The position numbers and the translations under genes are program-made. From a virus, in IMG/VR virus record IMGVR_UViG_3300005253_000560, positions 1-42,408 of that record: 42,408 bases of DNA; one strand, given 5' to 3'. Positions 1,654-42,408 of this stretch are shown here, in pieces. The notes beneath the pieces were generated by a model, which was given only the letters and a program-made list of their open reading frames with translations, made no database searches and had not been told where the DNA came from. Numbering within the stretch: position 1 is the stretch's first letter; every line of letters starts with the position of its first letter.

Positions 1654-1934
1654 GATCCAGACCAGCATTAAAATTACCAATGCCGAGAGAGCTTACCACG
1701 AACAAGGTAGGTGACATACAGGACCATTTCCGCCTTTGGCGGGAAGAGATGGACAAGCAGTGGCGGCTCTTGTTCCAGGATGTAGCGGTAATACAAGTGG
1801 ATACCGACGGCTGGATTTACTTCGGGGGTAAAGACGTGACCGGAAGTGCAAGGATAGGGCTGGTCGGTACCGACTGGGTATGCCAGCATTATATAGCAGG
1901 CGCTTATGCGTCGAGATTAGGATCGAGCCCGTGA
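1650..1934 (+). CDS. Small tail-associated protein preceding fibre gene
   Basis: A 94-residue protein whose ATG overlaps the upstream TGA, so it is translationally coupled to the hub gene. The N-terminal half is charged and helical with W and Q (WREEMDKQWRLLFQDVAV). The C-terminal half reads DTDGWIYFGGKDVTGSARIG then VGTDWVCQHYIAGAY. This is the short beta 'display' pattern (W-x-YFG, R-I-G, W-x-x-Q) seen in small phage proteins placed just before fibre genes. It is coupled by GTGA to the next gene. Its role is not known; an assembly factor or tip element of the fibre is plausible. Confidence 0.65.
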   Translation: MRSRPALKLPMPRELTTNKVGDIQDHFRLWREEMDKQWRLLFQDVAVIQVDTDGWIYFGGKDVTGSARIGLVGTDWVCQHYIAGAYASRLGSSP

Positions 1935-3343
1935 AAAGACTTGTTTTTATAATTTTGCTTTTATCGACAGCTGCACAGGCGGACATTAAGGTCATGGGCG
2001 ATGGCGAGCAGTTGATATGGAGCAATAACTCCCAGACAGTCTCTATCAGTGCATCCAGTTCAATGTCCGCCAGTGTAGATTATTTATGGCCGGTGGCCGA
2101 CGCTGTCTCCGGCGGGCAGGCCTTGCTTTCTGATGGTTCGGGTCTTTTGAGCTGGGGTACGCCGACAACTTCGACGGCGCATAATATACTGTCTGGTACG
2201 CACGATGCCACTACCAACGCGGTCACAAGGGGCTCGATAATTTACGGCAATTCCACACCCAAGTGGGATGAACTGGTAATAGGGTCTTCCGGGACGATTT
2301 TGAGAAGTGACGGCACAGATGTAGTGTGGTCGGCGACAACTAACATTACCGCCCTGGGTACCATAGTGACCGGTACCTGGAACGCCACGGCCATAGATAT
2401 TTCCAGTTATACCAACCTTACGGTCACCGGTCCCATAACTTTGACTGACGATACTGTCGGAATTACGATAGCCAAGGACATTGTCGCCGGTACCGGCCTT
2501 TCGGGCGGTGAAGACAATGTCCTGCCGGGCGCGGACGCAGATACTACTTTGACTTTTGACGCTACTGAACTCGATGCAATTATCTGGTCGGACGGCGTCA
2601 ATGCTTCGAACGCCTGGACGTTCAATGTTTCCGGTACGGACCATACAATGACCGCCGGCAGTGCGAAAATGACTTTCAGTAACGAGGTCGAAGCCGAACA
2701 GCTCAGCTCTACCGATGATGCTACTATAGCAGATAATACTAACACCGGGAGTTTATACGCCGGTGCCGCGGGTGACCGAGTTGAAATAGATGCCGTTGGC
2801 GATGTTGACTTCATCGGTCAGTCAGGTTTGGCTTTCGGTGAAATATCAGTAGAATCAAACGCAGTTGAAACCACGATAAGCACACAAGATGTACCCGTCC
2901 AGGTAACCGTATTTGATACCGCCCGCCATTCCAATAACACAACCATCAGTATCGCGAACAGTGACATAACCATATTACAGGCAGGTCATTATTTAGTTAC
3001 TGTATCGGCGGCGGTCAATTCTGTAGCAGGGTTGGGTTCGAAACTCGAACTTAAATGCAGGGTGAATAATGGAAGTTTTGACGCCATTCCACACGCAGAC
3101 AGAAACCTCGGAGGGGGTGCAGCAGAGGCTGGTTCTATAACATTGTCAGGAATAGCCGATTTGGACACAGGTGATACGATCGAGATATGGATAATAAACG
3201 AAACGAATACAGCCAATTATGTAGTTGAAGATATTTCCATGGCCCTTGTTCAAATTGGCGGGCCGATAAGAGATACTATGATTTATGAGGATGGAGATAC
3301 GATGATTTATGAAAACGGCGACACTATGGCGTACAATATGTAA
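1931..3343 (+). CDS. Sec-exported tail-fibre-like protein with C1q/TNF-like domain
   Basis: The GTG at 1931 is preferred over the longer open frame from 1880 because it overlaps the previous stop (GTGA) and places a clean signal peptide at the N-terminus: K-R, a run of hydrophobic residues, and AQA before DIK. The mature ~450 residues are T/S/G/D-rich beta repeats typical of phage fibre shafts (for example the LGTIVTGTWNATAID type). Residues ~307-441 resemble a C1q/TNF-like jelly roll, with HSNNTTISIANSDITI, then AGHYLVTVSAAV and a closing strand MALVQIGG. The last ~22 residues are three near-identical GDTMIYE-type repeats. It should form trimers if the jelly-roll reading is right. A signal peptide on a virion fibre is unusual. 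The product may instead be displayed on the host surface. Confidence 0.75.
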   Translation: MKRLVFIILLLSTAAQADIKVMGDGEQLIWSNNSQTVSISASSSMSASVDYLWPVADAVSGGQALLSDGSGLLSWGTPTTSTAHNILSGTHDATTNAVTRGSIIYGNSTPKWDELVIGSSGTILRSDGTDVVWSATTNITALGTIVTGTWNATAIDISSYTNLTVTGPITLTDDTVGITIAKDIVAGTGLSGGEDNVLPGADADTTLTFDATELDAIIWSDGVNASNAWTFNVSGTDHTMTAGSAKMTFSNEVEAEQLSSTDDATIADNTNTGSLYAGAAGDRVEIDAVGDVDFIGQSGLAFGEISVESNAVETTISTQDVPVQVTVFDTARHSNNTTISIANSDITILQAGHYLVTVSAAVNSVAGLGSKLELKCRVNNGSFDAIPHADRNLGGGAAEAGSITLSGIADLDTGDTIEIWIINETNTANYVVEDISMALVQIGGPIRDTMIYEDGDTMIYENGDTMAYNM

Positions 3344-3352
3344 GGAGAGATT

Positions 3353-5179
3353 ATGAAAAAGCTTATTGTAATTTTAATCCTACTGATTTTTATAGCAACA
3401 ACACCAGCCGCAGAAGTGAAATGGACGGCCATAAGCGAATTAACTGCTATTAACGATGCAGATATTCTTGTGGTTGTCGATGACGTGGCCGGTACGCCCA
3501 TAAGCAAAAAGATAACCGTATTAAATTTTTTCGATACGATAAATTCGTCTTCAAAGCTCAGGGCCATCGTTACAGACGAAACAGGAACGGGGCTATTGGT
3601 ATTTGGGACATCCCCGACTTTTACGACTTCAATTATAATTACAGGAGCAAATGCCGATCCAAGTTTAACAGGTCAGATAGTTTACGATAATACAATCGCG
3701 GGTATTATGGACGGTGGCGCCCTTCGCTGGTTCGATGATGATGATTCGGTAAGACTCTTGGTTGATCTTGAAACAGATCCTTCCAACGATGATTATGTCG
3801 TGGCCTACGATTCAACAGCAGACGGCTTTTATATGAAGGCGGACGCCGACTCAGGCGGAAGTACGGCCTGGGACGATATAGCGGACCCGGACAATAGCGG
3901 CCTTACCACCATTACTTTTAACAATGCCGAATTATCGCTCCTTACCGGTAATAACGACGCCGCGGCTTCGTTTTGGATTCTACAGAACACTGATGCGGAC
4001 CATACCGGAGGCAATTTTTATCTTCTTGATCTCGATTACAGCGCCGACGACGGTGATGTCGATGCGGATTATATCAAATGCCAAGATTCAGGCGGTGTGG
4101 TATTGACGATTCAAGAGAACGGAAACCTTACGACTACGGGATTTCTGGCGACAGGTGCAGACCCCGCCGACCAAGGTGCGATACGCCTAAGTAACGCCAC
4201 TATCATAGCGTGGGAAGATGCGACAGAGACTACACTGACACATATTGATAATGTTGGTCTCCTTCTTAATCTGGAACTTGAAATAGACGGTACCCTTGAC
4301 GCTGACGGCATAGTTACTTTGGGTGACGGCGGTGACAATTTTTCGGTTGCTTCGGATGGTATTGATATCGATACCAGCGGCAATATAACAAACGCGGGCA
4401 CTATCGCTTCCGGGGTGGTTACGGTAACGGGTGTTATCAATACCTCCGTAGGGATTGACGGCGTCGGCGCCGTTGATTTCGATATAGGCAGCGGTGATAT
4501 ACTGGATGTGACAATTATAGAAAATGGCGGGACCTACATATTTGATAACGGCCTGACCGCCGTTGGTGAGGATTTGGGATCGGCCACGGCGGAGTGGAAC
4601 GATTTGTTTCTCAATGACGGTGGTGTGATCCAATTAGGTAATGACCAGGACGTAACGATCACACACGTCGCCGATACCGGCATACAGATGGAGTTGGATG
4701 ACTCCATTATGTTCGGCGATACGGCGGTATTCATTGAGTCCGACGATGATGGCTTCCTTGACTTGGACGCGGATACGGGGATCCGTCTAAATGCGCCCGT
4801 CACAATTACGACGAATATAAAAGGCGAACCCAAGCATCTAATATTTAATGTCTTTAATCCCAGTGGTGTTCAGAGTGACGATACCCAGGTATGTATCTGG
4901 CCCGAAACCGATGCAGCTTTAACCATAACCAAGATTACGGTTACTTTAGACGCGGCCGGCAATGAAGTCGCGGGCGACTTGAAATACGCGGATACGTTTA
5001 TAGGCCTGGCCAGCCCGGTGGTTATAAATGTCTTCGATACCTCTTCAGGCGTTTTGGAAGATGCTACTATAACCTCCGGCTCGGTTGCAGCGGGTAAAGC
5101 TATTTATATTCAATTCGATTCAGCGCCCAATGCGGCGATTACTCAAATGTGTATAGACGTTGTTTTTGATTATGATTAA
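3353..5179 (+). CDS. Sec-exported fibre-like beta-repeat protein
   Basis: A 608-residue protein with AAGGAGA about 5 bases before the ATG. It opens with MKKLIVILILLIFIATTPAA, a textbook Sec signal peptide. The rest is acidic, T/D/G-rich beta repeat with motifs common in phage fibre shafts, such as LTHIDNVGLLLNLELEIDG, LGDGGDNFSVASDGIDID and LGNDQDVTITHVADTGIQM. A 'LGSATAEWNDLFLNDG' segment near residue 410 recurs in marine-phage tail fibres. The last ~110 residues (after a NIKGEPKHLIFNVFNP turn) look like a separate beta-sandwich cap. It sits between two other exported fibre-like genes with short gaps, suggesting one co-expressed set. No enzymatic motif is seen. Confidence 0.75.
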   Translation: MKKLIVILILLIFIATTPAAEVKWTAISELTAINDADILVVVDDVAGTPISKKITVLNFFDTINSSSKLRAIVTDETGTGLLVFGTSPTFTTSIIITGANADPSLTGQIVYDNTIAGIMDGGALRWFDDDDSVRLLVDLETDPSNDDYVVAYDSTADGFYMKADADSGGSTAWDDIADPDNSGLTTITFNNAELSLLTGNNDAAASFWILQNTDADHTGGNFYLLDLDYSADDGDVDADYIKCQDSGGVVLTIQENGNLTTTGFLATGADPADQGAIRLSNATIIAWEDATETTLTHIDNVGLLLNLELEIDGTLDADGIVTLGDGGDNFSVASDGIDIDTSGNITNAGTIASGVVTVTGVINTSVGIDGVGAVDFDIGSGDILDVTIIENGGTYIFDNGLTAVGEDLGSATAEWNDLFLNDGGVIQLGNDQDVTITHVADTGIQMELDDSIMFGDTAVFIESDDDGFLDLDADTGIRLNAPVTITTNIKGEPKHLIFNVFNPSGVQSDDTQVCIWPETDAALTITKITVTLDAAGNEVAGDLKYADTFIGLASPVVINVFDTSSGVLEDATITSGSVAAGKAIYIQFDSAPNAAITQMCIDVVFDYD

Positions 5180-5193
5180 GGAAGGAAGGAATT

Positions 5194-6642
5194 ATGATTA
5201 AGAAAATATTAATTTTACTGATTATCCTGCTTTTAGGAACAAGTGCCTTCGGTCAATACGTCGCTCCAAATGAAAATACTGTGATTGTCTGCGGTGGACT
5301 CGGTACTATGGCCAACGCCGCACAACTGAACGGCGGGGGTGCGACTAAGGCCGCCTGGGATGCGGGGAGTCCATCTGATTTTATCAACACAAACGGCGGG
5401 CCGATAACGAATGATACTGGAGTTACGTATGACCACACTGGTAATGGAGAGGGCGAAAGACATCTAAGTAAAGCCGGTCTTGGTACGGGTGTAACTGTGG
5501 GAACACTGGCTTATGTCTCCGGTACAAATATCACAGCGGGAATTTATGAGATTACAGGTGTCCCTGATGGTGATGCTATTTTATGTGCCAACATCGTTGC
5601 AAGTGATGACAACGCGGATTCGGTTGTCAATGTTGGCGGAGCGATAGACACACTTCAGAATGTCTTTGATGAAGTTGCCAATAATGCCGCTTTGTTTAGT
5701 CGCTACATCTATATCAACGGAATTGTGAGTGATGCTGATGGCACGATTCCGGTTGGCGTGGCCATTGATATTGACGTGAACGTCGGAACTACAACTACAA
5801 TGGTAATCGTTGTGGGATATAATGTCACTCTGACGGCGGAATCTCAGGTTGTCTTACAGGCAACGGCTGATATAAATGCCATACTATCATTTTCCAAGGC
5901 AGCGGGTTTATATTGGCTTATCAGAAGTATAGATTTTGATGCGGCTGGGGCTGGTAAGGCGAATTATTGTGTTCTTGGTGTAAGTTCAATGGACGACTAT
6001 GTTGCGCTTGAAGACTGTATTTTCAGGGGTGCGGTTGACCAATCAGCTATATCAATGCTTGGTGATAATTGGTCTGTTTATAATTCAGACATATCCGGCT
6101 CTGGTGGCGGTTTTGTTTCCGGGGGTACAGACGGCATAAACAGTCATGTTGTTGGCTGCTCGATTCACGATAATACCGGCGACGGTATTCACATTGAGGC
6201 ATCCGGTTCTCAAATAATCAATAATATAGTTTATGACAATACGGGAGTAGGCATCAATCTGACGACTCAGATTACCAACACAGTTGTCATGGGCAATACC
6301 TGCTATATAAATGATGGCGACAATATGAGAATTCCGGCAGACGCTTACTATGGAATCGTAATCAACAATGTGTGTGTCGGCAGCACCGGGGGGTACGGAT
6401 TCAATCTTAACTCGCACCCATCCCTTGAACATATAATCTTTGGCTACAATCTTTCAGCAGGAAACAGCAGTGGACATACAGACGTTAGCGGCACTTTCGC
6501 AAACTTGGGGATAGGTGGAAATATAGCAAGTGCTCAATCAGCAGACGCAATATTTGAAACCATAACGGATGGTTCGGAAGATTTCACGCCGGAAACAGGA
6601 AGTGATTTAATTGACAATGCTCTTGATGCGGGGACCAACTAA
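5194..6642 (+). CDS. Sec-exported right-handed beta-helix protein (spike-like)
   Basis: A 482-residue protein with AAGGAAGGAA before the ATG. The leader is MIKKILILLIILLLGTSAFG, cut before QYV. Residues ~230-420 show the N/G/I-rich ladder of a right-handed parallel beta-helix (NosD/pectate-lyase-like fold): CSIHDNTGDGIHIEASGSQI, NNIVYDNTGVGINL, NTVVMGNTCYIND. It ends SDLIDNALDAGTN, the usual 'LID..DAGT' finish of secreted beta-helix proteins. Phage tailspikes that bind or cleave polysaccharide use this fold, but no catalytic acid cluster can be pointed to. The signal peptide argues for export by the infected cell. Confidence 0.75.
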   Translation: MIKKILILLIILLLGTSAFGQYVAPNENTVIVCGGLGTMANAAQLNGGGATKAAWDAGSPSDFINTNGGPITNDTGVTYDHTGNGEGERHLSKAGLGTGVTVGTLAYVSGTNITAGIYEITGVPDGDAILCANIVASDDNADSVVNVGGAIDTLQNVFDEVANNAALFSRYIYINGIVSDADGTIPVGVAIDIDVNVGTTTTMVIVVGYNVTLTAESQVVLQATADINAILSFSKAAGLYWLIRSIDFDAAGAGKANYCVLGVSSMDDYVALEDCIFRGAVDQSAISMLGDNWSVYNSDISGSGGGFVSGGTDGINSHVVGCSIHDNTGDGIHIEASGSQIINNIVYDNTGVGINLTTQITNTVVMGNTCYINDGDNMRIPADAYYGIVINNVCVGSTGGYGFNLNSHPSLEHIIFGYNLSAGNSSGHTDVSGTFANLGIGGNIASAQSADAIFETITDGSEDFTPETGSDLIDNALDAGTN

Positions 6643-6651
6643 GGAGAAGAT

Positions 6652-6936
6652 ATGGTGCCAATAGGTAGCAAACAACTCAAAAGAAAAGACTGGTTACTCT
6701 TGGCGGCGATTCTTGTATTCATCGTCTGTATGGCTGTTTTCGGTGCTATCTGTGATGCGGGAACATGGGATATTGGAGCGGTCCAATTAGAGGGAGGGGC
6801 AACTGATATTGGTGGAGTACAAGCTGCTCCGGCAGCAGCGGTACCAGGCGGTCAGGTCATAATGATACAGGTCGGGGCGATTTCTATTTTCGCTTTGGTT
6901 CTTATAAAAAGGAGATTACAATGGGATTTAACTTAG
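6652..6936 (+). CDS. Small two-TM membrane protein
   Basis: A 94-residue protein with AAGGAGA six bases before the ATG, directly after the beta-helix gene. Residues ~15-35 (WLLLAAILVFIVCMAVFGA) form one membrane segment. Residues ~70-86 (VIMIQVGAISIFALVLI), followed by KRRLQW, form a second. Between them is DAGTWDIGAVQLEGG, which resembles the 'DAGT...DIGAVQ' end signature of secreted beta-helix proteins, plus an A/P-rich linker. It may anchor or partner the preceding exported protein. It overlaps the next gene by 16 bases. Function unknown. Confidence 0.65.
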   Translation: MVPIGSKQLKRKDWLLLAAILVFIVCMAVFGAICDAGTWDIGAVQLEGGATDIGGVQAAPAAAVPGGQVIMIQVGAISIFALVLIKRRLQWDLT

Positions 6937-7784
6937 GTGGTGCAATAACGGGGGGACTGGGTGGTTTCTTAGTTGGCGGGCCGGCGGGCGCTGTAATTGG
7001 TGCGGGTCTCGGCAGCCAGGCAAAAAAAGACCAGGCGGCCAAGACCACTTTTGGAACAATACCGCAGACGGCGGAGGCGACGGAGTCGAGGAAAAGACTG
7101 TTCGAATTAGCCACCGGCGAGCCGCCGGAGGTGCCGCGTCAGAAGATAGCGCCCTTACCGCCCAGGACCGAGGAAAGAGATATAGCCAGGACCACGGCCA
7201 AAGAGCTCATTCAGCCGACGGACTTTATGAGCCTGCCCGAAGTTCAGGGGATCATACAGGAGGCGAGGGTGACCGGTGACTTATTAGCCAATAGGCTTAG
7301 CAGGATGCTGCAGGCCTCCGGCAACCTTACCTCGACTACCGGCAGGGACGTTCTGGGCCGGGCGGTGACGGACGTTCAGAAAAGTCTTGCGTCGTCGCTG
7401 GCGCCCTTTGCCTCGGAAGAAAGGGCCCGCAGGACAAGTCTTATCCCCGTACTCGAAACGTTAGGTTTGACGGAAGAGGAACGGGAGAGGGGCATAGGAC
7501 AGGCGGAGTTCGATGCGGAGTTCCAGCAGGAATTTGCGGAATCGAAACAGTTAGAGACATTTATAATACCACTTCTGAAATCTATTATTGAATTGCAGCC
7601 AGGGGTACAGCCGATAATCAAAGGTGATCAGCCATCCTCAATCAGTCAATTCGCACCATTGATCGGGCCGCTATTAACGGGTATTTTGAAGAAGAGCCCC
7701 AGTGCCACCGGGGGCGGTTTTGCCGGAACAAACACGGCGGCCGGATTCAGCCGGCCAACACCACAAGGTACTTTTTTCGCATAA
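6921..7784 (+). CDS. Putative internal virion/ejection protein with glycine zipper
   Basis: A 287-residue protein with AAAAGGAGATTACA before the ATG. The N-terminus (residues 3-32, GGAITGGLGGFLVGGPAGAV then GAGLGSQ) is a glycine-zipper segment, often found in phage proteins that enter or span the host envelope. The rest is charged and largely alpha-helical with coiled-coil stretches (residues ~90-220, E/R/Q-rich) and a P/G-rich tail. It heads a run of three genes before the lysis-like genes. That position and composition match the ejected internal proteins of podoviruses (P22 gp7/gp20/gp16 class). No sequence-level family match is claimed. Confidence 0.6.
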   Translation: MGFNLGGAITGGLGGFLVGGPAGAVIGAGLGSQAKKDQAAKTTFGTIPQTAEATESRKRLFELATGEPPEVPRQKIAPLPPRTEERDIARTTAKELIQPTDFMSLPEVQGIIQEARVTGDLLANRLSRMLQASGNLTSTTGRDVLGRAVTDVQKSLASSLAPFASEERARRTSLIPVLETLGLTEEERERGIGQAEFDAEFQQEFAESKQLETFIIPLLKSIIELQPGVQPIIKGDQPSSISQFAPLIGPLLTGILKKSPSATGGGFAGTNTAAGFSRPTPQGTFFA

Positions 7785-7793
7785 GGGGACATA

Positions 7794-8756
7794 ATGGCAA
7801 GGCAAGTATTACCGACCTTAGACCTTAGAACTTCGGCAGAGAGAGAGGGTATAACCAAGACCCAGCAAACGGTACGGGCGATTGCCGGGATCTTAGAGAC
7901 TGTGGGCCGGGCGGAGAAGGCACGGCGGGACTCGGAGACTTTAGACAGGGTGGCCCGTGCCCTTTCGAGCGGCGCTACTAATATCGAAGCCATCGCCGGG
8001 CAGGAACCAAGTTTCGGAGGCGGCCTGCAGGGGGTGCTCCAGAAAGTCAGTGGTGCCTTTCAACCTGAAGGTAGTATGAGAGAAAGTATTTTACAGAGTA
8101 TTATCGGGCAGAAGCTGAAACAAACCTTGAATCCCCCATTATTGACCAGAGATGAAGAAAGAGAGAAGGCTTTGTTCGGAATAAGAGACCGCCCGGGCGC
8201 ACCTACGGTAAAGGCGCCCACGAAACAGCAGAGCCAAAGGGACCGTGACTTAGCTACTATCGAAAATAAGAACAAAAGCGACTTCCAGAAAGACGAGGCG
8301 AGAAAAAGATTAGATAAGGACCCATCACAGCCCAGAAAGCCGGTACCATCGGGCGGGACTTACGATGAGTTTTTGAACGATGAGGACAAGGTCAAAGGTA
8401 AATTTGGCAAGGAGGCTTACGAGGCGACGCTTAAAATAGTGAAGGATGAAGCCCGCCTGCAGGGTATGGACCCGAAACAAGTCAAGCAGGACTTCGACCG
8501 ATGGTGGGACGCCCGGGTGAAAGAGGAGAGAACAAGTTTTATCGGCCCGGGTATTTTCGAGAAGAATATAACTACACCCAGGGCGGAATTTCAGTCAGAA
8601 ACACCGACACCCGGACTTGAACAAAACGCTCCTCGCCCGGAACTCGGACCCTTCTGGGATGATTTATCAGAAGAGGAAAAGAAAGAAATAATACAAAGGC
8701 TCGACGAGGACCCCAATAACATCAAGGCTATTTTAAGGATTTTAGAGCGTGGGTAG
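7794..8756 (+). CDS. Putative internal virion/ejection protein
   Basis: A 320-residue protein with AAGGGGACATA before the ATG. It is alpha-helical and highly charged: helices at residues ~18-60 (TQQTVRAIAGILETVGRAEK), a disordered K/Q/D/R-rich middle (~120-175) and an acidic C-terminus (WDDLSEEEKKEIIQRLDEDP). It has no membrane segment and no catalytic motif. It sits between the glycine-zipper protein and the giant polyvalent protein, and overlaps the latter by 8 bases, so the three are likely co-translated and co-packaged. The role is inferred from position only. Confidence 0.55.
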   Translation: MARQVLPTLDLRTSAEREGITKTQQTVRAIAGILETVGRAEKARRDSETLDRVARALSSGATNIEAIAGQEPSFGGGLQGVLQKVSGAFQPEGSMRESILQSIIGQKLKQTLNPPLLTRDEEREKALFGIRDRPGAPTVKAPTKQQSQRDRDLATIENKNKSDFQKDEARKRLDKDPSQPRKPVPSGGTYDEFLNDEDKVKGKFGKEAYEATLKIVKDEARLQGMDPKQVKQDFDRWWDARVKEERTSFIGPGIFEKNITTPRAEFQSETPTPGLEQNAPRPELGPFWDDLSEEEKKEIIQRLDEDPNNIKAILRILERG

Positions 8757-11700
8757 ATTTGAGACATTAGCACCGAACAGATTTTCAAAAGAGATCCTCG
8801 AAGGTTCGAGATTCTCTCAGGAAACACTGGACATTCAAACAACTCCCGGCGATTTATTCGAGGACCTTGTCCCACCTGACATTCCAGAGATAGCCGATCC
8901 GCAGGATATTGGTCCTACTGCTTTCAGCCCCAAAGTTGAGACCGTACAACGTCCCCGATGGGACGAATTTGTCGATGCAACTGCAAGAGGCGTTGCAAGG
9001 GTTGGCTCTGCGGGTTTGTTAGCCGGAGCAGGATTGGCGGAGCCGAAGTTTCGTATGATTGGATTTAGGAAAGTGCCTATAACTCCTCCTCAAAAACGGG
9101 CCTTTCAAGCAAGTTCTGCTAAATTGAGAAAGGGGTCGGATTTCTTGTGGAATTTGTCTCAGAACCCAGGCATCGCCGCTCAAAATAAAGACATCGCAAG
9201 TAAGGCACTTAATCTCATCGGAGAGACTATACCCTATATCACGGCAACAACGGCGGCTTTCATAACTGCTGGTCCGGTTGGTGCATTTACAGTTGGGAGT
9301 CTCGTAGAGGGTAATAGCGCTTACAGGGTGGCACTTGACTCAGGGGTCGATGAAAACAAAGCTAAGAATATTGGAATTGGCGTTGGTGTTATCAGTGGTG
9401 CCGTTGAAGCCTTTGGCGGAAGATTTGCCGAGCAACTTGCCTTAAAAGCAATTTCAAAATTTAAGAATAAGGCCGTTAAAGCTGGGGCGGTTTTTGGCAT
9501 AGGAACCATTGTCGAAGCGTTAGAGGAAGGTGCCCAGGAAGTCGCTCAGATTGTGGGCGAAGAAACCTACCGTGACGTTGACTGGAATGAAAGAACAACG
9601 AGAATTCTTAGTTCTATGGCCGGCGGTGGTTTTCTTGGCGGTGTTATGCGTGGTGGTAGCGTAGCAGCAAGGGGAATAATTGGTACTGCTGAAAAGACTG
9701 TAATTGCCGAGCAGCCTACAGCCAAAGTAACACCACAAAAGAGAGATCAGGCCATAGACTTTGTTAGAAACGCACTCCGTCAGGAAAAGTTCGCGGCCTT
9801 AGATGAGAAGACCCGGGCGGAGATAGGCCAAAGGATGCTGGCCGAGCAGGGTGTGGATGTGGAGCTGGAAGAATTGGCCGAAACACCCGCCACAGCACCA
9901 TCGGAGGTATTAGAGACATCTGAACAGTTGTCTGATAGGCTTGAAGAACAATATGGCAATAACGTTATTGGGGTAGACCATGCTTTGCTGTTCGGAAAAA
10001 CGGACAAAAAATTCAATGAAATAGTAGGCAGGCTCTCTAAGTTATTCGATGCCGACAAGGCTAAATCACAAGAATACGAAAACCTTCTAATACAAAAACT
10101 GAAAATAATTGAGCAATACTTAGATAAAGCCGAAACACCCGCCACAGTAGGGCGCCAAGCCCCAGAAACACCCATACAGACGATATTACCCTCAGAAGTG
10201 GCAGGAATACCCCAGATAGCCCCCACCCCCAAGCTCCCCGCCAGAGACAAGCGGGGGCAAGCTCCGGCGGTAGAGGAGTTTCAGAAAACCCCGACGAATA
10301 AACAGGCCGCCGACCTCGGTTTTACAAAAGCAGATCAGGCGGTGATTGCATATATAGAGAGTCGCGGCGCGCAGGTTAATATCAGTGGCGTTCCATTAGA
10401 GGAATGGTTCACGTATCGAACTCCGGAAGGATTGTTAATACAATCAGACGCTGAAATTATAGGAAAAGGTGGATATCCCGAACTTCGTGCATTGGCCGAA
10501 AAATGGTTGAGTTCACGTGAAGCCCCCGCGGCGCCCGAGAAGAGGACAGTTGCCGAGATACAGGCGGAGATTGACAGTTTACTCAAAGACAACAAGGACC
10601 CGCCGACTGAGCTGTTAGCGGAGTTCAATGCCGCGGTCAAGGAAGCCAAGCTGGAAAAACCGATAACGGGAAAAGTGATAACGGTAGAAAAGACCAGTGA
10701 GGTCAAAACAAAAATTCCCAAGGCCCCTAAAGAGCCGGTTACTGAGAACCCCACGATTCCACTTAAAGGTAAAGAGGCCCAGGTGTTCCGGGAAGAGGTC
10801 AGGACCCAGGAAAAAATAACGGAGGCGGAGTCGGGAGAGGTGGGAATTGAGCCGGCGGGCGCTTCCCTTACCGATCATATCGATACCTTTCATACTTACC
10901 AGCTGCCTTCAACCTCAAAGATCCCGCAGATTACAAAACAAATGAAGCGGGTCAACGGATTGCGGTTAGCGGGCAAGCTCACACCACAAGAGGCCAATAG
11001 AAAAATTTACAACCTTCGCAAAGATGTGGTGCAGGCTGCCATCAAAGAAAAGATTGCCCTGCGGGTATCGAAGAAAGGCAAAGTGAAAATAGCTTTGAGA
11101 CAATCGGGGGTGTTCGTTCCCGAGGAAGTGGCCACTTACAAAAAGTACAAAGACATCGAGCCTATATTAGGCGGGGGCCAGGACATTACCAGGGCAATTC
11201 AGCAGATGGACGGCTCTCTTTCTATAAAAGAGAAATTAAAAGCAAAGGGCCAGGCGGGGCCGATAGAGCGATTTGTACTGTGGCGGACCCGTAAAATGAG
11301 CTTGCAAAAACTAAATTGGCTGAAAGAAAAAACAATCGAGATCCGGGGTATCCTGTCCGCGGCCAAAGGGTCTATAAAGGACAAAGAGATCAATATTATC
11401 CTTGAGCAGATAGGCAGCGCTGACCGTGACCTTCCGGTTAAAGATGTTCTCGACAAAAAGACTAAGATGAGCAAGGAATCCATCGAGGCGGCCCGGGAGT
11501 TAAGGCAATTTTACGATGACTTGATCGAGGAGCAAAACGCCGCCAGGCTGATGAGGGGTCAGAGCGAAATACTTTATCGGCAGAAATATTCACCCAACAT
11601 TCTCAGGGACACGACGGTATGGGAACAAGTGTTTTTGCGGGACAAGACGGCGAAAATCTTAGAAAGAGGGGACCTGCCCGATTACATAAAGCCTAACGCC

Positions 11701-13080
11701 CCTTTTAACCCGAGAGCACAGGCCAGAGAAGCCAAGATACCTTATGACAAGAGGGTATTAAGCGCCCGGGAATTAGCGGAAAGTTATATAATAACGGCCT
11801 CTAAGGACATTTTTAACACGTCAATCATTCAGAACAACAAAGCATTTATTGATCAGTTAAAAGGGCAGGGCCTTGAAAAGTCCGCAGAGTATCTGGCAGA
11901 ATGGACGGCGACATCGTATGCGGGGATAAAACCAAGGTTGGACCGGGCCGTTAAGCTGCCTAAGTGGGCGGCGGGTGGTCTGCGATATTTTAACAGGCTT
12001 AGAAATCTGGCGGTGTTTCCTCTCAACGTAGCGTGGTCGCTGAGTACCCAGCCGTTATCTTTATCGAATACCATCGGGCGTTACGGGCTGCCAAATACGG
12101 TCAGGGGATTTTCCCAATGGCTAAAACCCTCGATTAGAAAACAGGCGGCCCAGGATTACTTTTCATTTATTGTCAAGACCACCAAGCGGGGCGGAGTTAC
12201 CAAGCAGGATGCCTCTAATCTTTTGGGTGAAAATATCAAAACCCGGAAAACGGTCGGGGAATTTGTAGAAAACTTTACAACAATTCTTCTGACCGAGATG
12301 GAAAAACTGCTAACGGGAGCGTCGATAAGGGCCGCCCATGTAACAGGGTTAAAACGGGGACTAAAGGGTGAAGCCTTGAAACAGTTTGCTTCTGACGGCG
12401 GGGGGAAAACGCAGAGCATGTACAACGACGAAGACAAGCCGATGATATTAAGATCGCTTTTAGTCAAATCAGGGGCGCCATATCAGACCTACGCTTTCGA
12501 AGTGGCCAACACTTTCAGGGAATGGGCGGGCAGAACAGGTACTCCGCCGGACACTAAATTATACGCCCTGTGGTCATTAACCCGTTGGCTTGCGGCGTTA
12601 ATTGTATTAAAAATGATGGGAAATTCAGTAAGAGGAAGGGAATGGTCCTGGTGGGACCTGATCCCCCTGCCATTCAGCGAATTTTGGCTGACACCGATTG
12701 CCCGCAAATTAACGGGCGAATTCGTACCGGGCTCAGCGGGACTGCCGGCACCGGTAGAAACCGCAACAAGAGTGGCAGCGGGGATAAATGATGTATTAGA
12801 GGAGGGGAATTGGCGAAAGCTCAGAAATGAAATGTTAAAGTACGGCCCGGGGGTGTTTCGTATTCCAGGCGGAGTTCAATGGGCGCGGATGGTCGATGCC
12901 ATAATAGTTTATTCGAGTGGCGGGTTGACAGACAGAAAAGGGAAGGTAATGTTTGAAATGAAGGACCCGGAAGATTTGGCAAGGGCCATATTTACAGGGG
13001 TCTGGTCAACGGAAGGCGGTAAGGAAAAACTGGAACCAACGAAGAAAGAGTCCAGGAAATTCAAATTTGGTGAAAGATGA
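8749..13080 (+). CDS. Giant internal virion/polyvalent-type protein (1443 aa)
   Basis: Starts at GTG 8749 with AAGGA about 9 bases upstream and overlaps the previous stop. Residues ~150-320 are glycine/alanine-rich and hydrophobic (ETIPYITATTAAFITAGPVG and neighbours), likely membrane-inserting. Residues ~320-690 are linker-like, with P/E/K-rich stretches and repeated 'AETPAT' pieces. Residues ~700-1000 are long charged helices. Residues ~1060-1400 (FNRLRNLAVFPLNVAWSLST, SGAPYQTYAFEVANTFREWA, a hydrophobic WSLTRWLAALIVLKMMG segment, and GPGVFRIPGGVQWARMVDAI) resemble the C-terminal LPD38-type domain of phage polyvalent proteins. These large proteins are packed in the virion and ejected with DNA. 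No lysozyme, protease or polymerase motif was seen. A palindromic repeat lies in the linker at 10236-10256. Confidence 0.7.
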   Translation: MGRFETLAPNRFSKEILEGSRFSQETLDIQTTPGDLFEDLVPPDIPEIADPQDIGPTAFSPKVETVQRPRWDEFVDATARGVARVGSAGLLAGAGLAEPKFRMIGFRKVPITPPQKRAFQASSAKLRKGSDFLWNLSQNPGIAAQNKDIASKALNLIGETIPYITATTAAFITAGPVGAFTVGSLVEGNSAYRVALDSGVDENKAKNIGIGVGVISGAVEAFGGRFAEQLALKAISKFKNKAVKAGAVFGIGTIVEALEEGAQEVAQIVGEETYRDVDWNERTTRILSSMAGGGFLGGVMRGGSVAARGIIGTAEKTVIAEQPTAKVTPQKRDQAIDFVRNALRQEKFAALDEKTRAEIGQRMLAEQGVDVELEELAETPATAPSEVLETSEQLSDRLEEQYGNNVIGVDHALLFGKTDKKFNEIVGRLSKLFDADKAKSQEYENLLIQKLKIIEQYLDKAETPATVGRQAPETPIQTILPSEVAGIPQIAPTPKLPARDKRGQAPAVEEFQKTPTNKQAADLGFTKADQAVIAYIESRGAQVNISGVPLEEWFTYRTPEGLLIQSDAEIIGKGGYPELRALAEKWLSSREAPAAPEKRTVAEIQAEIDSLLKDNKDPPTELLAEFNAAVKEAKLEKPITGKVITVEKTSEVKTKIPKAPKEPVTENPTIPLKGKEAQVFREEVRTQEKITEAESGEVGIEPAGASLTDHIDTFHTYQLPSTSKIPQITKQMKRVNGLRLAGKLTPQEANRKIYNLRKDVVQAAIKEKIALRVSKKGKVKIALRQSGVFVPEEVATYKKYKDIEPILGGGQDITRAIQQMDGSLSIKEKLKAKGQAGPIERFVLWRTRKMSLQKLNWLKEKTIEIRGILSAAKGSIKDKEINIILEQIGSADRDLPVKDVLDKKTKMSKESIEAARELRQFYDDLIEEQNAARLMRGQSEILYRQKYSPNILRDTTVWEQVFLRDKTAKILERGDLPDYIKPNAPFNPRAQAREAKIPYDKRVLSARELAESYIITASKDIFNTSIIQNNKAFIDQLKGQGLEKSAEYLAEWTATSYAGIKPRLDRAVKLPKWAAGGLRYFNRLRNLAVFPLNVAWSLSTQPLSLSNTIGRYGLPNTVRGFSQWLKPSIRKQAAQDYFSFIVKTTKRGGVTKQDASNLLGENIKTRKTVGEFVENFTTILLTEMEKLLTGASIRAAHVTGLKRGLKGEALKQFASDGGGKTQSMYNDEDKPMILRSLLVKSGAPYQTYAFEVANTFREWAGRTGTPPDTKLYALWSLTRWLAALIVLKMMGNSVRGREWSWWDLIPLPFSEFWLTPIARKLTGEFVPGSAGLPAPVETATRVAAGINDVLEEGNWRKLRNEMLKYGPGVFRIPGGVQWARMVDAIIVYSSGGLTDRKGKVMFEMKDPEDLARAIFTGVWSTEGGKEKLEPTKKESRKFKFGER
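10236..10256. repeat. GC-rich palindrome in linker of the giant protein
   Basis: CCCCGC and GCGGGG arms around a 9-base spacer form a 21-base element flanked by short AAGCTCC direct repeats. The same element with a single base change occurs at 31746-31766 in another gene. It encodes part of a P/R/K-rich linker (KLPARDKRGQAPA). Confidence 0.6.
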
Positions 13081-27240: not shown

Positions 27241-27798
27241 ATGGCTAAAAAGAAAAAGCCCAGGAAAAAGAAAAACGGCAGGCCATCACAGTACAAAGCC
27301 CGATACTGCGGGATGTTGATAAGGTTTTTCGACATTGAGCCGTTCGAGGAGGTGAGAATCCCGCACTACGATGAGTCGGGTAAGGAGCACAAATCAGGCC
27401 GGCACAAAGGCGAAACGATTGTTACTCACTACGAAATCCAAAGGAACCCCAACCGGACGCCGACCCTGCAGCGCTTCGCCAAAAAAATCAAGGTTGGCAT
27501 ATCGACAATTTACCGGTGGCTCGATGAAAACGAGGAGACTTTTAAGGCGGAGTTTCGGGACGCTTTCACGTGTGCGCGCGCGTGTAGAAGGAGTTTTCTA
27601 ATAGAAAACGGACTTTGTGGATGCCACAGCCCCGCCTACGCGAAGTTCGTTGCGGTAAACTTAACTGACATGAAGGACACTCAAAAGCAGGAAGTGACAG
27701 GACCCGAAGGCAGGCCTATTCCGGTGAGCATAATTGATTACAGTACGGTTGATCTTGATAGCATAAAACCTAATGGAGATAAAGATGAACCGGCGTGA
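27241..27798 (+). CDS. terS: Terminase small subunit
   Basis: A 185-residue protein. ATG 27241 is chosen over the TTG inside the promoter -35. It has a lysine-rich N-terminus (AKKKKPRKKKNGRPSQY) and a helix-turn-helix at ~80-105 (TLQRFAKKIKVGISTIYRWL, DENEETF). Then comes the CGCHSPAYAKFVAVNLTDMK segment, typical of phage small terminases ('NPAFAIFVAKNLTDM'-like). It recognises the packaging site and feeds DNA to TerL. Its end overlaps terL by 14 bases, a usual arrangement. Confidence 0.8.
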   Translation: MAKKKKPRKKKNGRPSQYKARYCGMLIRFFDIEPFEEVRIPHYDESGKEHKSGRHKGETIVTHYEIQRNPNRTPTLQRFAKKIKVGISTIYRWLDENEETFKAEFRDAFTCARACRRSFLIENGLCGCHSPAYAKFVAVNLTDMKDTQKQEVTGPEGRPIPVSIIDYSTVDLDSIKPNGDKDEPA

Positions 27799-29359
27799 TT
27801 TTCTAAAGGCTGCGGCGATGGTAACGATATCACCAGCGGTAACGATACCCAATAACATTGTCAATAGTGGATTTCACTACTGGCAGTTGGAGTATCTGAA
27901 ATATTTCGATTTGGGTTTGGCCAGGTTTGGCATATTAGAATGGCACAGGAGGGCAAGGAAAACCACATTAGCGGTTAATCAATTAGCCAGGCAGGCCTGT
28001 AAGCATGCACATTGCAAATACGTTTATATCAGCCCCACCCAAGTCCAGACCAGGGCGCTAGTGTGGGACGACCCCAATATGCTGGCCAACGCCTTGCCGG
28101 ACAAACGGCAGATGAACTATAAGCTGAATGAGACCAAGATGCTGGTGACATTTGAAAACGGGTCCATGATAAAGTTTGGCGGTTCAGATAATCCAGATGC
28201 GCTACGGGGTATAGATGCTGTCGGTGTGGTTCCTGATGAATTCGCACTCATTGACCCGACAGTTTGGTCGAAAATTTTCAGGCCGATTATGTCGGGCGAA
28301 GTCAAATATAAACGAAAGAAAAGTGAAGGTGAAATATCCCCGGAGATGCGGTGGGCATTATTTCTTTATACCCCCAAAGGAATTAACCATGCGCCATTGA
28401 TGTTCAATATTGCTGCCTGTGTGGAGGACGAGGCCAAATTACCAAGACGCGGTAAAGCGGCTAAATGTAAGCCCGGCTGGTTCGCAAGCCGCCTGATAGC
28501 AGACGAGTCTGGTATTATCCCTCGCAAAGAGCTTGATATGATGCTTGAGGAAGTGGCTCAGGGCCTGATGACGATAGAAGATTACGATCAGGAGATGCAA
28601 TGCCGCAGGGTGACAGACGAGGAGCGGACCTTAATTACTTCGAAAATGCTGGCACGGTTAGAACAGATTGAGTGGGAAATTTACAGGGACTCTGCCAAGG
28701 AGATACGCAGGATTGTTGCCATTGAACCGGCCTTTGGAGGTGACTTATGCTGTATCAAGGCCTTTGAGAACGGCCGGGAGATTACACAGCGGGGCCTGCA
28801 CTTAAAATTAACTTCCGAAGTGTGCCACGTAGCGAAAGTAGTGGCGGAGGAGATAGATACCAGGAACTTCATTGTAGATTGTATCGGCGTTGGCAAAGGC
28901 GTTGCCGATTACCTGGCCGATGATGTAGCGGGTTATGACGTTCAATATTTCGATTCAGCGGCCAAGGCCAGAGTTAAAGGCGTTAAGTCCGATGTGATTG
29001 CCGATTGCAATTTGTGGGCCAACAAGAAAGCAGAGGCCGTCGCTTATGCCGCATCCCTGATTCGCAGGCTCAAAGTGGAGTCGATTGTCGATGCGGAGAC
29101 CAAACGTCAGTTAGTTGCGTTATCAAAGTATAAAGTGACCGGCAGCGGGCGGACGATCATGATTCTGAATGATGATGTCAAGAAAGCTATTGGCTGTTCG
29201 CCTGATAAAGGGTTATGCTGGATTTACGGTCAGTGGGGCCTGCAATATGTTGACCCCATTCGAAACGAAGAACGGGTTCGCTATGATGAGGCCATGAAGG
29301 ACCATAGAGAAAGAAAACGCCGGACCCGAAGGGGACGAAGACCGATGAGGATGGGATAA
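27785..29359 (+). CDS. terL: Terminase large subunit with Tat-like N-terminus
   Basis: A 524-residue packaging ATPase/nuclease. ATG 27785 has GGAGA five bases upstream. ATPase: a Walker-A-like HRRARKTT at 54-61 (variant lacking the usual glycine), adenine-side YVYISPTQVQTR, and Walker B VVPDE with D151-E152. Nuclease: IVAIEPAFGGD (E314, D320), IVDCIGVGKGVADYL and a late CSPDKGL. The first nuclease acid is usually Asp but is Glu here. The first residues, MNRRDFLKAAAM followed by VTISPAVTIP, match a Tat signal (R-R-x-F-L-K plus a hydrophobic stretch), which is odd for a cytoplasmic motor. Confidence 0.88.
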   Translation: MNRRDFLKAAAMVTISPAVTIPNNIVNSGFHYWQLEYLKYFDLGLARFGILEWHRRARKTTLAVNQLARQACKHAHCKYVYISPTQVQTRALVWDDPNMLANALPDKRQMNYKLNETKMLVTFENGSMIKFGGSDNPDALRGIDAVGVVPDEFALIDPTVWSKIFRPIMSGEVKYKRKKSEGEISPEMRWALFLYTPKGINHAPLMFNIAACVEDEAKLPRRGKAAKCKPGWFASRLIADESGIIPRKELDMMLEEVAQGLMTIEDYDQEMQCRRVTDEERTLITSKMLARLEQIEWEIYRDSAKEIRRIVAIEPAFGGDLCCIKAFENGREITQRGLHLKLTSEVCHVAKVVAEEIDTRNFIVDCIGVGKGVADYLADDVAGYDVQYFDSAAKARVKGVKSDVIADCNLWANKKAEAVAYAASLIRRLKVESIVDAETKRQLVALSKYKVTGSGRTIMILNDDVKKAIGCSPDKGLCWIYGQWGLQYVDPIRNEERVRYDEAMKDHRERKRRTRRGRRPMRMG

Positions 29360-29628: not shown

Positions 29629-29952
29629 ATGAGAACATGGATGGTAAACAAATATGAGAATATTCGAGCAGTTATTTTTTTAGCTTTTATTTGTTCACTT
29701 CTTGCGGTGCTTTTGTTCGGCTGTCAAACTCAGCAAACCCCGCAAGTCCGAAAGGTATGGGGCCAGGGGGACCTGCCCGCCGACTGGCAGGGCTTCTTTG
29801 GTGAAGGCAACGTTGCCAGGCTCGACTTCATACAGACCCAGACAATCAACAGGCAGGGCCAGGCGATTGCAGTGCTCGCCGAAAGGCTAAGAAAATTGGA
29901 GGCCGATCCCAACGATGCTTACGAGGCCGAGTTGAAGCGCAGAGGTTTATAA
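29629..29952 (+). CDS. Phage lipoprotein with TPQxRxVWG motif (paralogue)
   Basis: A 107-residue protein. ATG 29629 is chosen over 29584 and 29596 because GAAGGAG lies 8 bases upstream. The leader ends SLLAVLLFG|C, a lipobox. Soon after the cysteine is TPQVRKVWG, close to TPQQRQVWG in the lipoprotein at 14971. The mature part then has QGFFGEGNVARLDFIQTQTI and a C-terminal helix (AIAVLAERLRKLEADP). It should be anchored in the inner or outer membrane. Role unknown. Confidence 0.65.
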   Translation: MRTWMVNKYENIRAVIFLAFICSLLAVLLFGCQTQQTPQVRKVWGQGDLPADWQGFFGEGNVARLDFIQTQTINRQGQAIAVLAERLRKLEADPNDAYEAELKRRGL

Positions 29953-30442: not shown

Positions 30443-30714
30443 AACTAATCCCAACGTTAGATCGGGTGGCTATAATCCGCGAGGAGAGGAAGAAGAAGAG
30501 CACGGGCGGTATTATTCTGCCTTGTGAAAAAGAGTCGAACTACGGTGAAGTGGTCGCCGTTGGTCCGGGCGGATTTAATATAGACGGTTCCCGGCGGCCA
30601 ATGTCGGTCAAGAAGGGTGACATAGTATTCTTTAAAGCAGACTACCATACCACAACGCCCGATAGTAAAGTGGTGATAGTCGATGATGAGGATGTTCTGG
30701 CGATAGTGAAATGA
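30439..30714 (+). CDS. GroES-like co-chaperonin
   Basis: A 91-residue protein; ATG 30439 overlaps the previous TGA. Cpn10 hallmarks are visible in order: LIPTLDRVAIIREERKKKST, then GGIILP (mobile-loop region), NYGEVVAVGPGG, VKKGDIVFFKADY, and a final VDDEDVLAIVK. Length matches Cpn10 (~95). Phage Cpn10 proteins, like T4 Gp31, cap host GroEL so that it can fold the phage capsid protein. Its place near the terminase, portal and capsid genes fits that role. The mobile loop is short, which may tune it to the host GroEL. Confidence 0.85.
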   Translation: MKLIPTLDRVAIIREERKKKSTGGIILPCEKESNYGEVVAVGPGGFNIDGSRRPMSVKKGDIVFFKADYHTTTPDSKVVIVDDEDVLAIVK

Positions 30715-30977
30715 AACGTAGAGAATTTATAAAATCAGCGTGCCTTGCGGTCTTGGGTGTAAGCTCGTTGGGAACTCCCGGAGGGCACACCAAAGCCGTT
30801 GAAAGTGCCGTGACGGTGGCAACGGGGATTAGTCCGCTGAAGGTTGACCGAGCACTTTTCCTGGGTGCTAAAGTTGGTTTAGGTGCATGGTCGTCGGACA
30901 CAGTTAAACCAAGAAATAAGGTGAACCCAGGGTTTCAATTAGTAGATATTGACTGGACACCATTATTAAATACGTGA
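30711..30977 (+). CDS. Small protein with Tat-like signal
   Basis: An 88-residue protein; the ATG overlaps the co-chaperonin TGA. It opens MKRREFIKSACLAVLGVSSL then GTPGGHTKA, a close match to a Tat leader (R-R-x-F-I-K, hydrophobic stretch, A-x-A-like end). The remaining ~60 residues (LKVDRALFLGAKVGLGAWSS, GFQLVDIDWTPLL) have no known domain. If exported it would be a small periplasmic protein. Together with the terL N-terminus it makes two Tat-like leaders within 3 kb. Confidence 0.6.
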   Translation: MKRREFIKSACLAVLGVSSLGTPGGHTKAVESAVTVATGISPLKVDRALFLGAKVGLGAWSSDTVKPRNKVNPGFQLVDIDWTPLLNT

Positions 30978-31791: not shown

Positions 31792-31950
31792 ATGTTCAAG
31801 TGGTTGATATGTTTGTTCAAAGGACATCGTTGGTGGTTATGGCGAATAATAGATACAAAAGGCGGTGTAGTCGTCTTTGAAAAATGTTTAAGATGTAGAA
31901 AATTGCGAGTTGACCAAAGTGTTGATAATAGATGTAGGAAAGTTGAATAG
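31792..31950 (+). CDS. 52-residue zinc-finger-like protein
   Basis: GAGCGGAGTAATT precedes the ATG. LICLFKGHRWWLWRIIDTKG then KCLRCRKL: the pattern 'FKGHxW...C-x-x-C' matches small phage DUF1660-like zinc proteins. The stop shares its last base with the portal GTG. Role unknown. Confidence 0.6.
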   Translation: MFKWLICLFKGHRWWLWRIIDTKGGVVVFEKCLRCRKLRVDQSVDNRCRKVE

Positions 31951-35868: not shown

Positions 35869-36744
35869 GTGGACAAAGAAGAGATTACTAATTTGCCGGA
35901 AGGCATGACAAGCGAAGAGCTTGACGCCCTGACTACGGGTGAGGACACTCCTGAAAAGGAAGAGCAAGACCTCGCCCAGGCGGCGCTCGAGGCCACCGAA
36001 AGTCCGGCTGAAGAGTCCGTATCTAAAACCGAAGAGGCCGCAGCGGCGGTCGAGGAAGAACTGTCTGAAGATCAACAGCAGTTACGGGCCAAGGACTCCA
36101 AAATAGCGTCACAGAAGCATGAGCTTAAAGAAAGGGACCTGGAAAACGCAAGGCTGCAGGGCCAAATAGAGGCCCGCAAGGAATTAGCCGTACCGAAAGA
36201 CCCGGTCAAATCGCCACTGGAAATCGCCGAGGCCGCTTACCTCGAAGAGCACGATGATCTGGATGGTTTCGCCATAAGCGGCAAGCTCTATCGAGAACAG
36301 AAGGTGTTCGAAGATGAGCAGACGGCGAACAAGGCGACTACCCAAGAGCAAACGCAGACTAACACCGCGGCGGTCCAGGCGGAAGACGAGCTGTTAGCAG
36401 GCGAGCTGTCGGAAGAAAAGCGAGGCGCAGGACTCGATTTGAAAACTGTGGCAGGAATTGGCCAGCAGTATCTGACAAGAGGCGACAAGTTAGATATAGC
36501 CGATACCGTTCAGTCTCGAGGCCATAAGGCCGCCCTGAAAGTGGCATACGACAGAATGGTGCAACGTACCCTTGGCGCCGACAACGCGGATTCCAAGCTT
36601 CTGAAAATCGCAATTAGTAAATCTCAGACTAAACCCAAAAAAGAGAAAACAAATATCGACGCCCTCACTACTGAGGACGAAGAAAAGGGCGAAACTGAGA
36701 CAGAGACTCACAGCAGCAGATTAGCTAACTTTGTATGTAATTGA
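35869..36744 (+). CDS. Scaffolding-like protein
   Basis: A 291-residue protein. GTG 35869 is chosen because AAAAAAGGAGACTATC precedes it; the longer frame from 35782 runs through the leader RNA. It is highly acidic and helical: an E/D/A-rich N-terminal third, a coiled coil at ~80-110 (KDSKIASQKHELKERDLENA, RLQGQIEARKEL), and a basic segment near the C-terminus (KPKKEKTNID) with an acidic tail. Size, charge and the position between portal and major capsid gene are those of podovirus scaffold proteins, which guide procapsid assembly. Assigned by position and composition. Confidence 0.7.
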   Translation: MDKEEITNLPEGMTSEELDALTTGEDTPEKEEQDLAQAALEATESPAEESVSKTEEAAAAVEEELSEDQQQLRAKDSKIASQKHELKERDLENARLQGQIEARKELAVPKDPVKSPLEIAEAAYLEEHDDLDGFAISGKLYREQKVFEDEQTANKATTQEQTQTNTAAVQAEDELLAGELSEEKRGAGLDLKTVAGIGQQYLTRGDKLDIADTVQSRGHKAALKVAYDRMVQRTLGADNADSKLLKIAISKSQTKPKKEKTNIDALTTEDEEKGETETETHSSRLANFVCN

Positions 36745-40093: not shown

Positions 40094-40219
40094 ATGAGTA
40101 AGAGAAAGCGATTATCTATCTGGGAGCTTGTGGAATGCTGTGTTGGTATAACGGCGCTCCTGCTCTTTACATTTATCTTTTGGACGGGTCTTAAGACTGT
40201 AGCGGGATGGATATTCTAA
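40094..40219 (+). CDS. 41-residue single-TM peptide
   Basis: MSKRKRLSIWELVECC, then a hydrophobic helix (VGITALLLFTFIFWTGLKTV) and AGWIF. The stop overlaps the start of the O-antigen-ligase-like gene by 13 bases. The ribosome site is weak and lies next to the hairpin. It may be a small partner of that membrane protein. Confidence 0.45.
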   Translation: MSKRKRLSIWELVECCVGITALLLFTFIFWTGLKTVAGWIF

Positions 40220-42329: not shown

Positions 42330-42408
42330 ATGACCGTATTTGCAGACACTTACGACAAAGCCACACCTGCAGGCTCAGACGATCCGGCAGAAGCAGATGA
42401 CAGGATGC
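42330..42408 (+). CDS. Start of a further tail gene (truncated by window end)
   Basis: TTAAGAAATG: MTVFADTYDKATPAGSDDPA then EADDRM at the window end. The opening 'T-Y-D-x-x-x-P-x-G-S-D-x-P-x-x-A-D-D-R-M' is common at the N-termini of phage tail or fibre-attachment proteins. Joining the window ends does not keep a single open frame, so this is not simply the missing N-terminus of the gene at position 1. Confidence 0.6.
   Translation, partial: MTVFADTYDKATPAGSDDPAEADDRM

Follow-up and report, generated by a model that had tools for sequence, protein, structure and literature searches.

Sec-type leaders on fibre and spike proteins of an uncultured P22-like podophage, and a possible assembly route outside the cytoplasm

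Results

The DNA analysed here, referred to as the window, is a 42,408-bp record of an uncultured virus (IMG/VR record IMGVR_UViG_3300005253_000560); it is a linear fragment with one gene cut at each end. Judged by the sequences of its portal protein (31950-33977; PF16510, 1.1e-40) and major capsid protein (36780-37979; Phage_capsid_3, PF13252, 1.4e-39), neither of which has a leader, it is a fragment of a P22-like podophage. The subject of this study is a set of four fibre-like or spike-like proteins that begin with export signals of the Sec type. Three are encoded one after the other (1931-6642), between a phrog_3287-like gene and presumed internal protein genes; the fourth, absent from an earlier note on this DNA, directly follows the capsid gene (38086-40050). 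All four genes thus sit in the virion structural module. The genes for the terminase, the virion proteins and the two 94-amino-acid (aa) proteins described below are all on the plus strand.

The fibre slot follows the gene for a phrog_3287 virion structural protein (1-1653), which is truncated at its 5' end and in which no leader was seen, and that for a conserved 94-aa protein (1650-1934) directly upstream. Fibre protein 1 (1931-3343; 470 aa) carries the leader VKRLVFIILLLSTAAQA^D (1931-1981; the caret marks the predicted cut). Fibre protein 2 (3353-5179; 608 aa), a member of what we call family E, carries MKKLIVILILLIFIATTPA^A (about 3353-3409) and an N-terminal module (SELTAINDADILVVVDDVAGTPISKKITVLNFF), and the beta-helix protein (5194-6642; 482 aa) carries MIKKILILLIILLLGTSAFG^Q (5194-5253), with glutamine at position +1. 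The latter two genes have strong ribosome-binding sites (RBSs), and that of fibre 1 starts with GTG in a 4-bp overlap with the upstream stop codon (GTGA). The earlier note had proposed Sec-type leaders on these three proteins, and this is borne out: the open reading frames (ORFs) lie where it placed them and each begins with an n-h-c leader. By rule and inspection, the leaders combine a positive n-region, a hydrophobic h-region and small residues at -3 and -1, as expected for Sec and signal peptidase I. Inspection found no RR motif, as a twin-arginine (Tat) signal would require, in the four window leaders and no lipobox cysteine in the three fibres, so that a lipoprotein reading of the fibres was rejected. 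The 38086 protein has a cysteine at residue 16 without a good lipobox, and its LPAM_1 match is below the cut-off.

The architectures proposed in the earlier note held in part. The beta-helix at 5194 is right-handed and matches PF13229 above the cut-off; the C1q/TNF-like region, which had been assigned to the 3353 protein, is instead a hint at the C-terminus of the 1931 protein (BclA_C, E 0.0017, below the Pfam cut-off), and the 3353 protein has a weak match to DUF7352. Fibre 2 also has a 31-aa shaft stretch in common with a virion structural protein of S-WAM2 (58%, E 6e-4). Searched against PHROGs, the three proteins gave no match better than E 0.2. The small protein said to follow the fibres is present (6652-6936; 94 aa) and contains two hydrophobic segments. 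With LIDNALDAGTN at the end of the beta-helix protein and CDAGTWDIGAVQ behind the first hydrophobic segment of the small protein, the region 6600-6800 looks like a single beta-helix C-terminus divided between two proteins. The tail of the small protein (VPGG, a hydrophobic stretch, KRR) resembles a sorting signal.

Loci for comparison came from three profiles: the portal profile yielded 20 viral loci, that of family A 15 and that of family E 10. With further profiles, for core genes and for the two families A and C, we searched the gene calls of 28 single or joined contigs and scored them for leaders by a rule of our own making plus inspection; tried on 2061 arbitrary ATG starts, the rule fired on 112, a number that includes true leaders. 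Near-identical pairs (L041/L051, L048/L056, L084/L085, L086/L088) and identical contigs (L048 = L057; L035 = L063 = L089; L033 = L064 = L092) were noted. The comparison of leaders with related contigs that the earlier note had called for shows that they recur in relatives of fibres 1 and 2. In G004 and G005, the fibre 1 slot holds a single large leadered fibre (a 1042-aa ORF and 1198 aa, respectively) whose first ~130 residues align with fibre 1 from residue 1. G004 keeps both the GTG overlap and the leader, and the alternative ATG of fibre 1 at 1994 is not conserved, since both contigs have F there and keep the leader. The N-terminus of fibre 2, leader included, recurs in L064 (45% over residues 1-113). 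Neither the third protein (5194) nor the small protein has a relative in the loci examined.

In the same contigs, leaders are absent from the core virion proteins: the large terminase subunit TerL (0/18), portal (0/21), scaffold (0/18), capsid (0/22), the phrog_3287-like, nozzle-like protein (0/12) and the internal proteins (0/10), or 0/101 for all core proteins together. The rule fired on 2 of 16 adaptors, both judged false because neither has a hydrophobic core. Hence, the leaders are not a matter of chance, given their recurrence in relatives of fibres 1 and 2 and their absence from core virion proteins encoded by the same contigs. Several leadered relatives match tail PHROGs: L058 (tail spike, 2.7e-15), L003 (tail fibre, 1.1e-23), L037 (tail fibre, 3e-5) and L004 (tail spike, 1.7e-5); of the ten proteins compared in this way, five had no tail match. 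In G003, which looks complete because it has a 127-bp terminal repeat, seven proteins of the structural module are leadered, these being every fibre-like protein identified, and a further two leadered proteins are encoded outside that module; among its called genes we noted no fibre candidate without a leader.

Elsewhere, tail proteins are typically leaderless. None of 25 tail proteins from 12 named records has a leader, most of these records having been retrieved by way of homologous fibre shafts, and among four named or annotated P22-like genomes only 1 of 40 structural-module coding sequences does; these controls were hand-picked from annotation tables and are not a random sample. The single case is Pam5_19 (L052 17837-18304), a 155-aa hypothetical protein beside the Pam5 tail spike, with a clear signal peptide. 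The window's four proteins depart from the usual leaderless start of tailspike and tail fibre proteins, which is a habit of the family and not a defining sequence feature. The cysteine content, taken as a hint of disulfides, does not differ strongly between fibre domains (0.0051) and core proteins (0.0041).

The post-capsid protein (654 aa; leader 38086-38145) represents family C. All 18 hidden Markov model matches of this family are leadered, or 16 of 16 after merging two near-identical pairs; the profile was built from 11 of the 18, and a further copy in L087, noted by eye only, stands outside them. Leader identity falls to 40% in some pairs. When random walks were started from the window leader, the rule was kept in 19-61% of runs at 40-70% identity, a comparison that is only a guide because the 16 real leaders, all of which pass, share ancestry.

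The domain behind the family C leader (about residues 24-118) was modelled from 11 sequences with a mean predicted local distance difference test (pLDDT) score of 73 and over 80 in the domain core. Foldseek against viral models (BFVD) gave probability 1.00 to pectate-lyase spikes and a tail fibre, and likewise to a protein named 'Bacteriophage P22 tailspike, N-terminal'. Compared with PDB chains, the domain scored Z 7.4 with Pan3, 6.7 with Pam1 (7eeq), 6.4 with Sf6 and 6.2 with P22 (2vky). The top row was a non-phage SleC chain (Z 9.1), with the phage chains amid other Ig/CnaB-like folds, and Foldseek against the PDB found no match at E <0.001; the fold alone is therefore only suggestive. By sequence, hhalign of the family C profile with the N-terminus of the Pam5 tail fibre scored 25.8, whereas none of 200 shuffles exceeded 17.3, and the Pam5 fibre in turn matches 7eeq_A ('Tailspike head-binding domain') at E 0.0039. 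A sequence search of the PDB returned chance-like repeat matches only, and Pfam and PHROGs gave nothing consistent for the family. Taken together, the model and the profile comparison indicate that the predicted post-leader domain of family C, the only family covered here, resembles the head-binding (virion-anchoring) domains of the tailspikes or fibres of Pan3, Pam1, Pam5 and P22.

Two further families contain members with and without leaders. Family A, recognized by the motif TYDxxTPAGSDDPAEADDRMREIKAA, has 9 leadered and 6 leaderless members among its 15 loci; with the window copy added and near copies merged, 9 of 15 distinct cases are leadered. The start of the G005 member was moved by hand from 18541 to 18352. 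On a family A tree of 14 rows, two of which lie on long branches, the leader trait changes at least 5 times, and 2 of these changes are forced by well-supported branches. In family E, to which fibre 2 belongs, 9 of 10 loci are leadered, or 8 of 9 after adding the window and merging near copies.

The positions of the cleavage sites relate the two forms to each other. The leaderless family E protein (L093) has 9 residues between its Met and a conserved Glu; in the leadered proteins an A-X-A-type site lies 9 residues before that Glu in 7 of 8 rows and 8 residues before it in the eighth. Likewise, the clear family A sites (G004, G005 and L037) place the cut 5 residues before the anchor, compared with 4-5 residues in leaderless rows. 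From these matching distances, predicted cleavage would yield nearly the N-terminus of the leaderless type. Candidate sites in L040 and L058 lie farther upstream. The residues at +1 are mixed across the leaders (Q, D, A, R and S); the Bacteroidetes Q rule was rejected as a general rule, as Q stands at +1 only in some leaders. Searching named phages by tblastn with the N-termini of fibre 2 and of families A and C gave no match, nor did family A match the KLEP18-1 fibre.

As to the remaining genes of the window, three presumed internal virion protein genes, starting at 6921, 7794 and 8749 (6921-13080), are leaderless, their function being assigned from position, as is that of the leaderless presumed head-tail adaptor (41733-42326; gp4 position). 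A gene for a protein with O-antigen ligase (Wzy_C) and TPR regions (40207-41730) lies behind the family C gene and ahead of the adaptor, with a 34% relative at the same position in L033/L064; possible roles of this protein are the remodelling of surface glycan and the glycosylation of exported fibres. A 107-aa lipoprotein-like protein (FFGEGNVARLDFIQ; 29629-29952) has relatives near the terminase or portal in several other contigs. Small proteins of 68-97 aa with Tat-like RRxF leaders occur between terminase and portal (window 30711-30977; L032 4619; L034 7381; L035 3124; L045 3724). In G005, a leadered protein (36312-36737) has a motif resembling a lytic domain of the 3D/MltA type; it is perhaps an exported lysis enzyme. 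To find a link to a host, genome contigs were scanned with a 1443-aa protein and the portal; neither scan yielded a relative, and a capsid scan of viral contigs gave no match. A search with the 94-aa anchor protein found no relatives beyond the two already known.

Discussion

The export signals on these proteins are well supported; where the proteins finally reside is our inference. We consider the chances slightly better than even that they are virion fibres and spikes of a P22-like podophage group which are exported through Sec, cleaved and, probably at lysis, attached to the particles outside the cytoplasm; the proposal draws on sequence comparison and structure models. The earlier note had left two options, display on or secretion from the infected cell and fibre assembly outside the cytoplasm. 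The evidence favours the latter; the former is less favoured and could hold in addition. Assembly outside the cytoplasm is favoured because a head-binding-like domain follows the family C leader, because two fibre families include both leadered and leaderless members, with the best cleavage sites restoring the leaderless N-terminus, and because no leaderless fibre candidate was seen in G003.

In such a route, host SecYEG would export the fibre chains and signal peptidase I would trim them. In the cytoplasm, heads would be filling as the fibres fold and trimerise beyond the inner membrane. Once the holin opens the membrane, finished heads would meet the stored fibres, which may dock through their N-terminal domains. 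P22 heads can take tailspikes as the last step in vitro, which makes late docking plausible. A likely gain is that fast-folding or glycan-cutting trimers would be kept outside the cytoplasm; another is that surplus fibres may act on the receptors of the dying cell, trimming or blocking them.

Several observations weigh against this proposal. Family A is leaderless in 6 of 15 distinct cases, the window copy among them, and these copies imply that export is not indispensable. The window copy itself begins at 42330 (MTVFADTYDKATPAGSDDPAEADDRM; 42330-42408, truncated by the contig end) with an in-frame stop two codons upstream, so that the window mixes leadered and leaderless fibres. The family A leaders of L059, L067, L069 and L070 have no clear cleavage site. 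The ratio of nonsynonymous to synonymous polymorphism (pN/pS) over 20 leader codons spreads from 0.14 to 1.18, which indicates uneven constraint on the leader letters. On the structural side, Z scores below 8 can reflect the common Ig/CnaB-like fold, the P22 head-binding domain matches family C by fold only (not significant by hhalign), and the model of fibre 1 is poor (pLDDT 38). Finally, the window's terminase large subunit (27785-29359) begins, at its called start, with a Tat-like leader (MNRRDFLKAAAMVTIS; 27785-27850; TAT_signal of Pfam at E 2e-4, below the cut-off), ahead of a stretch that in L045 opens with MIATIPNN. A Tat-like N-terminus on a cytoplasmic terminase means that leader-like extensions can arise without obvious need; as read from the sequence, leader-like grafts reach a cytoplasmic enzyme too, unless its translation starts at 27818.

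Of the other explanations, the one to be taken most seriously, although we hold it rather unlikely, is that the exported fibre-like proteins remain on the infected cell or are secreted, while the virions carry other fibres or none. Such proteins would mask or digest receptors, counteracting superinfection and the loss of virions on debris, or would alter adhesion. The leaders do look like genuine export signals, and there are precedents for free proteins of this kind: gp38 of SD286, a receptor-binding protein reported to be able to block adsorption when free, and WceF of Pantoea stewartii, a tailspike-like trimer that is exported by Tat and acts alone (PMC7949094). Moreover, the Wzy_C-like ligase and the conserved lipoprotein encoded nearby suggest that this phage may well target the envelope. 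However, a free protein would have no evident use for the head-binding-like domain of family C, leadered and leaderless forms alternate within families A and E, and G003 would be left without a receptor-binding protein. That the hydrophobic N-terminus is instead an uncleaved anchor, by which the fibres are tethered to the inner membrane and passed on to particles at that site, or which stays in the virion and aids entry, seems improbable to us: the four family A leaders without a clear site would fit, but most leaders have A-X-A-type sites, and in family E the spacing between these and the conserved domain is fixed.

Still less probable is that the leaders are neutral baggage, leader DNA that recombination grafts onto phage genes and that is tolerated or inefficient. 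The Tat-like extension on the terminase and the approximately five leader changes on the best family A tree, two of them forced, are what this would produce; yet all 16 distinct family C proteins keep a leader despite its divergence, which random walks at 40-70% identity often fail to do. A start-codon or assembly artefact is very hard to credit. Although fibre 1 uses GTG and the gene caller picked 1994, homologous leaders with their own RBS occur in many contigs from many metagenomes, and overlap and leader are conserved together in G004.

A broader and more tentative idea, to which we give somewhat less than an even chance, is that fibre assembly outside the cytoplasm constitutes an unrecognised second pathway in bacterial and possibly archaeal tailed viruses, consisting of Sec export, processing and docking only at the time of lysis, in which the exported spikes and fibres are perhaps glycosylated outside. 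With fibre modules that are otherwise ordinary acquiring and losing leaders, the two pathways would exchange parts. If the receptor-binding components of entire phage groups pass through Sec, this adds a step to lysis timing, fibre folding, glycosylation and superinfection exclusion, and host-range annotation should seek leadered fibres, possibly filed as host or secreted proteins. The idea is directly testable, as the predicted mature N-terminal peptides can be searched in existing virion metaproteomes.

In the textbook view, the assembly of tailed phages is cytoplasmic. Virion proteins that pass through Sec are known from filamentous phages, which are not tailed phages and whose coat proteins, such as pIII and pVIII, are assembled in the membrane by extrusion. 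No description of Sec-leadered tail fibres was found in the literature searched, whose coverage excludes most subscription journals; this suggests that an export route for tail fibres has not been described for tailed phages. The new element is the export signal, the parts themselves being ordinary fibre and spike modules. The family C domain, portal and Phage_capsid_3 capsid resemble those that accompany the tailspikes and fibres of P22, Pam1, Pam5 and Pan3, whereas P22 gp9 and the Pam5 fibre and spike start leaderless and family C has a Sec leader before its domain.

Like the window proteins, WceF is a tailspike-like protein exported by a signal peptide; in contrast, it is host-encoded, uses Tat and is a free enzyme (PMC7949094), while the window proteins are phage-encoded and Sec-like and, in family C, carry an N-terminal domain of the virion type. 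The nearest published case is that of Porphyromonas gingivalis phages (Nixviridae), which also have Sec-leadered genes, a subset of them with core phage functions, and five of their signal-peptide proteins, of unknown function, obey the Bacteroidetes Q rule (PMC10367356). The parts of that paper covered here report no fibres, and the +1 residues of our leaders are mixed. A similar arrangement is that of Caudoviricetes sp. vir555, a Methanomicrobiales virus (BK063671; L071 6648-11267), where three consecutive leadered fibre or beta-helix genes stand behind tail genes and a shaft module is common with fibre 2. This virus differs in being archaeal by its record, in a very long gene before the tail protein, and in that its leadered genes are annotated as hypothetical only. 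Another archaeal-virus record, vir515, has no leader in the three proteins checked. On the strength of the vir555 gene trio, the pattern of leadered fibres may extend to archaeal viruses.

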